A stretch of 64,000 nucleotides of DNA from Akkermansiaceae bacterium. GTDB lineage: Bacteria; Verrucomicrobiota; Verrucomicrobiia; Verrucomicrobiales; Akkermansiaceae. The position numbers and the translations under genes are program-made. Location of the stretch: the NCBI GenBank assembly GCA_013041925.1, contig JABDRB010000011.1, positions 1 through 64,000 of the forward strand. Direction: 5' to 3'. Under the pieces are notes generated by a model. The model ran no database searches. It was not told where the DNA came from and saw only the letters and a list, made by a program, of their open reading frames with translations. Shown here piece after piece: positions 32,660-37,120 of the stretch (its first letter is position 1; each line of letters starts with the position of its first letter).

Positions 32660-33019
32660 TTACGAATGAAGAAAATCGATGATCCGTTGCTTGGGCCGAC
32701 CAATGATCGCCTTGTTTCCACGTATGAGCACAGGACGCTGTAGCAGCTGCTTGTGCTTGAGCAAAATTTCAATCACGGCATCAGGGTTGCTGACATAATC
32801 CTCGGGGTTAAGTTCCTTTTTCTTAAACATGGAATCCTTGCGCACCAGGTCCTCAACGGGACCTTCAAGGGCCGCCACGAGCCGTTCCAACGCCTCACGA
32901 TCCGGAGGCGTTTTGATATACAGGATGACATCGTGATCAACTCCCAGATCCTCGGCGACCGCCAAGGCATTTTTCGAGGACCCTCAGTGTGGGTTGTGGT
33001 AAATAATCGTTTTCGCCAT
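32660..33019 (-). CDS. Selenocysteine-containing ArsC-family arsenate reductase (119 aa, in-frame TGA = U12)
   Basis: Read from ATG 33019, the frame gives MAKTIIYHNPH, then TGA (32986-32984), then GSSKNALAVAEDLG and on to TAA at 32660. Aligned to E. coli ArsC (IYHNPACGTSR), the TGA falls exactly on catalytic Cys12. His8 and Arg60 sit at the same numbers, and Arg95 and Arg108 correspond to Arg94 and Arg107. Twenty-three bases after the TGA, a 7-bp stem with a GGUC apical loop (32950-32967) matches a bacterial SECIS. The frame downstream stays open and family-like, so a random nonsense mutation is unlikely. Predicted role: glutaredoxin-coupled reduction of arsenate or a related oxyanion or thiol substrate. 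It lies 64 bases downstream of fhs. A standard caller truncates it to 32660-32965 with a TTG start and loses the active site. Protein family is certain; the Sec reading is an inference needing selABC/tRNA-Sec elsewhere in the genome. Confidence 0.85.
32950..32967 (-). other. Candidate bacterial SECIS element (apical hairpin)
   Basis: On the sense strand CCUUGGC-GGUC-GCCGAGG forms seven pairs (one G-U) closed by a GGUC loop. The loop starts 23 bases after the UGA. The E. coli fdhF SECIS also has a GGUC apical loop, 18 bases after its UGA. An alternative outer stem GGUCCUCG/CGAGGAUC starts two bases after the UGA. Confidence 0.75.
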
Positions 33020-33083
33020 GCCCGATTCTAAATCGCATCATATCAAGTATCAAACTCCAAAAATGGACACGGCTGGTGCAAGA

Positions 33084-34757: not shown

Positions 34758-34843
34758 CGCATAGAGGCTAAGGGCACACACCATGATGAAAAGGTCAATA
34801 TCATGGCTTTTCCGACCATTCATTTCGCACTATATTGCATCGT

Positions 34844-37120
34844 ATGCCCTTTGAGAGCGATCCCCAACCACCCCACACAGGAAAACCAAAGACCTTTGCC
34901 GGAGGAGCAGGTGCGGTCACATCCGCACTGAAACACGTCATGAAATCCGCCGGACCGATCCGCGGCACCCAGGCACTACTCGAACTCAACCAGAAAGATG
35001 GGTTCGACTGCCCGAGCTGCGCCTGGCCTGACCCAGACGACCATCGTGCCCACGCCGAGTTCTGTGAAAATGGAGCCAAGGCCATCGCATCAGAAGCCAC
35101 CACACACCGGATCGACCGCCGATTTTTCCAAACACACAGCATCGCAGACCTACTGGAGAAAAGCGATTATTGGCACGACCAGCAAGGCCGCCTCACCGAG
35201 CCAATGATTCTGCACGCGGGCGAAACCCACTATCAACCGATTTCTTGGGATGATGCCATCACCCATATCGCCAACGAACTCAAGGGGCTCGATCACCCCG
35301 ACCAAGCTGTTTTCTACACTTCGGGACGTGCCAGCAACGAAGCCGCCTTCCTCTACCAACTCTTCGCCCGCCACTTCGGCACCAACAACCTCCCCGATTG
35401 CTCCAACATGTGCCACGAATCCAGTGGCACCGCCATGAAACAGGCCATCGGCGTCGGCAAAGGAACCGTCACCCTCGATGATATCCATCAGGCCGATACC
35501 ATCCTCTGCATCGGCCAAAACCCCGGCACCAATCACCCGAGAATGCTCGCCGCCTTAGAAAAGGCCGTGGAAAATGACGGCCGCGTCATCGCCATCAACC
35601 CACTCAAGGAAGCCGGACTCATCGGCTTTGCTCACCCACAGAAAATCTCCGGCATGCTCGGCAAATCCACGCCCCTTGCCTCGCAATACCTGCAGGTCAA
35701 GGTGAATGGCGACCTCGCCCTGCTCCGCGCTCTCGGCAAAGAGCTGTTCGAACGCGAAGACGCCCAACCAGGATCTGTCATCGATCACGATTTCGTCCGC
35801 CAACACACCCAAGGGATCGACGCCTACCGACATCGCTGCGAAAACGCCAACTGGGACCAACTCATCACGCAGTCCGGCATCCCAAAAAACGATATCCAAC
35901 AACTCGCCGACACCATCCTCCGTCGCGACCGGAAGCTCATCACCTGCTGGGCCATGGGAATCACCCAGCACCGCAATGCCGTCGCCACCATCCGCGAGAT
36001 CACCAATCTCCACCTGCTGCTCGGCGCCATCGGCCGACCCGCCGCAGGCCTCTGCCCAGTCCGCGGCCACAGCAATGTGCAAGGCGACCGCACCGTCGGC
36101 ATCTATGAAAAAATGCCCGAGTCGTTCCTGGCTGCCCTCGATGGTGAATTTGGTATCACATGCCCGCGTCAACACGGCTACGATACCGTCGATGCCATCC
36201 TTGCGATGCACCAAGGTGCCGCCAAGGTCTTCTTTTCGCTCGGCGGAAACTTCCTCCAGGCGTCGCCAGACACCGACTTCACCGCACAGGCACTCAGCAA
36301 CTGCACACTCACCTGCCAGGTCTCTACCAAACTCAACCGCAGCCACCTCGTTACTGGCCAAACCGCCATCATCCTCCCGTGCCTCGGCCGCAGTGAACGC
36401 GATACCCAAAGCGGAGAAGATCAATTTGTCACCTGTGAAAACTCCATGGGCATCGTCCATATGTCCAAAGGGAAACTCAACCCCGCCTCACCCGATCTCC
36501 TCAGCGAAACCGATATCGTCGCCCGACTCGCCAAGGCCACCGTGGGCGACACCCGCGCCATCCATTGGCGCCAGCTCGTAAACCACTACGACCAAATCCG
36601 CGACATGATTGAAAAAATCATCCCAGACTTTGCCCCCTACAACCAACAAGTTCGGCACCCCGGAGGATTCTACCTCCCCAACCATGCCAAAATGCGCATC
36701 TGGGACACCCCCACCAGCAAGGCCGAGTTCAGCGACTCCGCCTGCGATCAGTTTCAGGTCGCCGAGGGACGACTCGTCCTCCAGACCTTGCGCAGCCACG
36801 ACCAGTATAACACCACCATTTACGGACTCAACGACCGCTACCGCGGTATCGGCATGGGACGGAGGATCATTTTCCTCCACCCCGACGATATGAAAAGCCG
36901 CGGCATCGCCCCCGTCTCACAAGTCGATATCACCAGCCACTGGGAGGACGGCGAAAGACGTGCTGAAAATTTCTACGCCATCCCCTACGATATCCCCATT
37001 GGCACTGCCGCTGCTTATTTTCCCGAAGCCAACGTGCTTGTTCCCGTCCACTCCACCGCTCTGGAAAGCAATACGCCAACCAGCAAATCCATCGAAATCA
37101 GCCTTCAACCATCCCACTAA
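34844..37120 (+). CDS. FdhF/YdeP-family molybdopterin oxidoreductase (758 aa)
   Basis: A cytoplasmic Mo-bisMGD oxidoreductase of the YdeP/formate-dehydrogenase-alpha-like type. GFDCPSCAWPDP (about residues 48-59) is the characteristic N-terminal block. ISWDDAI starts the molybdopterin domain, and SNMCHESSGTAM (about 187-198) gives the Mo-ligating Cys where formate dehydrogenases may have Sec. The ADQFQ-like C-terminal cap binds the second pterin. The usual N-terminal four-Cys FeS motif is absent, as in the family. ATG 34844 (MPFESD) was preferred over TTG 34835. Physiological substrate is unknown (formate or an acid-stress-related substrate). It likely needs FdhD, encoded at 44192. Confidence 0.87.
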   Translation: MPFESDPQPPHTGKPKTFAGGAGAVTSALKHVMKSAGPIRGTQALLELNQKDGFDCPSCAWPDPDDHRAHAEFCENGAKAIASEATTHRIDRRFFQTHSIADLLEKSDYWHDQQGRLTEPMILHAGETHYQPISWDDAITHIANELKGLDHPDQAVFYTSGRASNEAAFLYQLFARHFGTNNLPDCSNMCHESSGTAMKQAIGVGKGTVTLDDIHQADTILCIGQNPGTNHPRMLAALEKAVENDGRVIAINPLKEAGLIGFAHPQKISGMLGKSTPLASQYLQVKVNGDLALLRALGKELFEREDAQPGSVIDHDFVRQHTQGIDAYRHRCENANWDQLITQSGIPKNDIQQLADTILRRDRKLITCWAMGITQHRNAVATIREITNLHLLLGAIGRPAAGLCPVRGHSNVQGDRTVGIYEKMPESFLAALDGEFGITCPRQHGYDTVDAILAMHQGAAKVFFSLGGNFLQASPDTDFTAQALSNCTLTCQVSTKLNRSHLVTGQTAIILPCLGRSERDTQSGEDQFVTCENSMGIVHMSKGKLNPASPDLLSETDIVARLAKATVGDTRAIHWRQLVNHYDQIRDMIEKIIPDFAPYNQQVRHPGGFYLPNHAKMRIWDTPTSKAEFSDSACDQFQVAEGRLVLQTLRSHDQYNTTIYGLNDRYRGIGMGRRIIFLHPDDMKSRGIAPVSQVDITSHWEDGERRAENFYAIPYDIPIGTAAAYFPEANVLVPVHSTALESNTPTSKSIEISLQPSH

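Follow-up and report, generated by a model that had tools for sequence, protein, structure and literature searches.

In E. coli, ArsC is encoded in an ars operon together with an exporter. Its nucleophile attacks arsenate held by arginines, and the resulting adduct is resolved by glutathione/glutaredoxin. The ArsC fold is common to Spx, which binds RNA polymerase, and YffB (TIGR01617). An arsenate reductase with a UxxS motif, in which selenocysteine (Sec) takes the catalytic position, appeared with 14 sequences and a predicted SECIS among the fifteen selenoprotein families newly described from the Sargasso Sea (Zhang et al., 2005, PMC1088965). The GOS survey of 2008 contained 77 UxxS sequences filed as 'ArsC 1' (pfam03960; PMC2398784). 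Selenoproteome catalogues of 2022 and 2026 list Sec ArsC with MBT3519430.1 (PMC9312934, PMC13188914), and the functions of such selenoprotein families are largely uncharacterised according to the 2026 review (PMC13188914). A further arsenate reductase-like selenoprotein, NF041106, belongs to the same ArsC/Spx superfamily. It carries a UxxC motif, represents a different subfamily and is possibly the 'Arsenate reductase 2' UxxC group of GOS.

Here, we describe an arsC-like gene in a 64,000-nucleotide stretch of an Akkermansiaceae genome (hereafter the window). Judged by its sequence, the encoded protein is a member of the Sec ArsC UxxS family known since 2005. We classify it as a new member because both defining features are present, namely homology to ArsC and the UxxS motif (U12-G13-S14-S15, with S15 invariant among its relatives). 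Compared by published description rather than by alignment, the two share the ArsC family (COG1393/PF03960/TIGR00014), Sec at the catalytic position, UxxS and a predicted bacterial SECIS immediately after the UGA, and nothing essential differs; here, the host is genome-resolved. The NF041106 profile does not match the window protein. The literature bears out the statement, in the original prediction from the DNA alone, that Sec versions of arsenate reductase-like proteins had been predicted in marine metagenomes (PMC1088965, PMC2398784). A literature search, with most subscription papers beyond reach, found no published placement of the family in Verrucomicrobiota.

An arsC-like frame with one internal TGA

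The segment at 32660–33019 on the minus strand is almost certainly a genuine selenoprotein gene with Sec at codon 12 that ordinary gene callers overlook. Its frame runs from ATG 33019 through MAKTIIYHNPH-TGA-GSSKNALAVAEDLG to the TAA stop at 32662–32660 and comprises 119 amino acids. Exactly one internal stop interrupts it, the TGA at 32986–32984 (codon 12), so that Sec would be residue 12. Mechanical ORF calling at this locus yields only a 101-residue ORF that starts at TTG 32965 and lacks the active site. The gene is a clean case of ordinary annotation cutting off the part that carries the active site and leaving a fragment. A weak, putative promoter-like match (TTGATA-17-TAGAAT, 33025–33053, minus strand) ends 5 nt upstream of the ATG and, if real, would give the gene an almost leaderless mRNA.

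The protein belongs to the Pfam ArsC family (PF03960; 50.7 bits against a cut-off of 24, 2.3e-13). With Cys in place of Sec, it scores 91.1 bits against the TIGR00014 equivalog for arsenate reductase (glutaredoxin), whose cut-off is 106.05 bits. Because this score lies below the curated cut-off, we name the protein ArsC-like and do not file it under the equivalog. In an alignment to the solved E. coli structure, codon 12 coincides with the catalytic Cys. The counterparts of H8, R60, R95 and R108 in E. coli ArsC are H8, R60, R94 and R107. The combination expected of an arsenate reductase (glutaredoxin), H8 with a nucleophile at position 12 and three arginines, is therefore present. An AlphaFold2 model, built from 18 sequences with Cys standing in for Sec, reached a pLDDT of 94, and the PDB entries most similar to it are arsenate reductases (TM 0.80–0.84). 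The E. coli plasmid ArsC (PDB 1I9D, 1JZW) shares with it the fold (TM ~0.83), H8, R60 and a nucleophile at 12, as well as both arginines further along the chain; it differs in carrying Cys12 instead of Sec12 and is ~30% identical. Arsenate reductases outrank Spx and YffB among both sequence and structure matches, and the matches to Spx and YffB are weaker. Several points of the original prediction hold up in these data: the same frame from ATG 33019 with its single TGA at residue 12 was recovered, the proposed active-site set of H8, R60, R95 and R108 agrees with the alignment to E. coli ArsC, and the expected annotation product of 101 residues without an active site is exactly what ORF calling gave.

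Arsenic context and the likely substrate

By family, arsenate is likely the substrate of the Sec ArsC-like protein. It is possible, if rather unlikely, that a genuine ArsC-fold selenoprotein instead has a physiological substrate other than arsenate, acting as a selenol/thiol oxidoreductase (e.g., on peroxide or a disulfide) or as a protein of the YffB or Spx type. The fold itself, being common to Spx and YffB, and the TIGR00014 score under the cut-off would fit such a role. Moreover, neither an arsenite export partner nor an ars operon was found, which are usual but not strictly defining for an arsenate reductase. Acr3 (TIGR00832) and ArsB (PF02040) have no match in the 98% complete genome. 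In twelve relatives, the ORFs flanking the gene, assessed by eye on their opening residues, reveal no common arsenic operon, and the gene neighbours are not conserved among these relatives. All of these points favour another substrate. However, Acr3 and ArsB, to which the exporter search was confined, are not the sole arsenic exporters (ArsP, ArsJ and aquaglyceroporin are others), the arsenate-binding arginines R60, R95 and R108 are conserved, and arsenate reductases come ahead of Spx and YffB as the nearest matches in sequence and structure. Arsenate is thus the more likely substrate, and since the usual arsenite exporters are absent, the true substrate of Sec ArsC is a testable question.

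Near the gene, the window contains an ORF for a formate-dehydrogenase-like molybdopterin oxidoreductase (34835–37120, plus strand), which apparently uses Cys (CSNMCHESSG) and has no internal stop. A homologue of this ORF adjoins the Sec ArsC gene in the closest relative (L051).

Conservation of the TGA codon, the SECIS hairpin and the Sec machinery

Homologues were sought in 289 genomes of the same order, and a scan of GTDB contigs added more loci, with tblastn used to locate homologous sequences. A close relative of Sec ArsC, whole or partial, occurs in 47 of the 289 genomes (the window's own counted). The match includes a TGA in all 47, at 65–78% identity except for the window's own, and the remaining ArsC matches of this search show at most 35% identity and no stop. 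Codon 12 reads TGA in every one of the 65 close loci that span it, which correspond to 51 distinct sequences. No Cys version exists among these close relatives; TGT or TGC at this position is confined to distant relatives of at most 39% identity. The locus hence has the mark of a bacterial selenoprotein, an in-frame UGA where distant homologues carry a redox-active Cys. Residues without exception in the 51 sequences include Y7, H8, U12, G13, S14, S15, R95 and R108, and R60 is kept in 50. A TGA in a distant homologue from genome G596 was rejected as a Sec codon, as it is the ordinary terminal stop of a protein with Cys.

Downstream of the TGA, a 7-bp hairpin (CCUUGGC-GGUC-GCCGAGG; 32950–32967, minus strand, apical loop 32957–32960) begins after 16 nt, and its loop after 23 nt. 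It has the form expected of a SECIS, a downstream hairpin with G in the apical loop. The GGUC loop is invariant in 51/51 distinct sequences. The stem shows compensated changes across these sequences, chiefly U-A to C-G and G-C to A-U, which run through the synonymous codons of Leu19 (TTG/CTG/TTA/CTC) and Ala22 (GCC/GCT/GCG) and also through residue 23. Other codons inside the hairpin are frozen, with Val21 being GTC in 51/51 and codon 20 being GCG or ACG only. In 20 diverse sequences, 94.3% of stem cells are paired, and both sides carry a change in 14 cells, compared to a mean of 4.8 in shuffled alignments, with none of 500 shuffles as high. The signal is destroyed when one stem partner is slid. 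Two less sensitive covariation measures, pairs changed on both sides (59/500) and pair types (75/500), gave no excess over shuffles.

Folded as a single sequence, the stretch prefers a different stem as its minimum-energy structure (z-score -0.97), and the SECIS hairpin has a pair probability of only ~0.11. This competing stem, GGGUCCUCG/CGAGGAUCU, was rejected, with 76.7% pairing and covariation not above shuffles. An Rfam scan of the window returned nothing at gathering thresholds. Since folding of the stretch alone is unremarkable, the hairpin by itself is a weak argument and the case rests on comparison. The comparative case for a SECIS at this site, made from aligned homologues, is strong, and the covariation support is added by the present analysis.

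It is very improbable that translation starts at the internal TTG 32965 and that the piece upstream is not translated in frame, as the 101-residue ORF from mechanical calling would have it. The upstream codons encode an IYH motif conserved in homologues, the shorter product would lack the catalytic residue, and the TTG start is not conserved, as 23/51 sequences have CTG, TTA or CTC at codon 19. A pseudogene or sequencing error, by which the TGA would be a nonsense change in an arsC of the Cys type, has the single in-frame stop as its sole support and can be dismissed because 51 distinct sequences, drawn from many assemblies, have TGA at the same codon, with the protein conserved on both sides of the TGA and the hairpin conserved as well.

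The gene set expected for a bacterial selenoprotein, selA, selB, selC and selD, is complete in the window's own genome (98% complete). selB lies on contig C11 (324 bits, above cut-off), selA on C10 (504 bits), selD on C21 (370 bits) and tRNA-Sec (selC), with anticodon TCA, on C22. The selD gene (L010 1501–2427; C21:73839–74765) itself has an in-frame TGA in CAGUASKL (CAG-U-ASKL) and is a second predicted selenoprotein gene of this genome. Within the order, selA is found in 44 of 47 genomes with a TGA-containing arsC vs 51 of 242 others (Fisher p ~9e-22, uncorrected for relatedness). Of the three such genomes without selA, two have selB above the cut-off and one is a bin of 53% completeness.

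Taken together, homologues, SECIS covariation and Sec genes support the original prediction of a probable selenoprotein hidden by ORF calling. Its 7-bp hairpin with a GGUC loop is present at the spacing given above, its view that error or random mutation was improbable fits the recurrence of TGA at the same codon, and the search it proposed for selA, selB, selD and tRNA-Sec found all four. A close strain with plain TGT or TGC and no hairpin, which would have spoken against it, was looked for, and all close relatives have both TGA and hairpin.

By this reading, SelD would supply selenophosphate, from which SelA would make Sec. SelB would bind the GGUC-loop hairpin and, with tRNA-Sec(UCA), would allow UGA codon 12 to be decoded as Sec. 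In the protein, the Sec12 selenolate, amid Arg60, Arg95 and Arg108, may act as the nucleophile towards an oxyanion (most likely arsenate) and so give an adduct. If the enzyme works like E. coli ArsC, this adduct would be resolved by glutathione/glutaredoxin, a glutaredoxin being the presumed partner.

Host range of the family

The Sec ArsC gene is patchy within the genus. Congeners G155, G181, G187, G220, G270 and G286 possess selA and have no Sec ArsC match. Beyond Verrucomicrobiota, seven distinct sequences come from MAGs labelled Acidimicrobiales or Acidimicrobiaceae (Actinomycetota; L052, L053, L055, L062, L064, L069, L072). They are 71–78% identical to the window's protein and have the same SECIS, and six of the seven lie in GC-rich flanks (0.60–0.65). 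These records suggest either transfer between phyla or mis-binned contigs.

More tentatively still than a non-arsenate substrate for this one protein, a Sec-only ArsC-fold subfamily without a near Cys version might have shifted from arsenic detoxification to other selenol chemistry and been exchanged between Verrucomicrobiota and Acidimicrobiia. Such a shift is proposed because the host lacks the usual arsenite exporters. For this selenoprotein family, initially known from pieces of metagenome, the present genomes now provide a genome-resolved host range.
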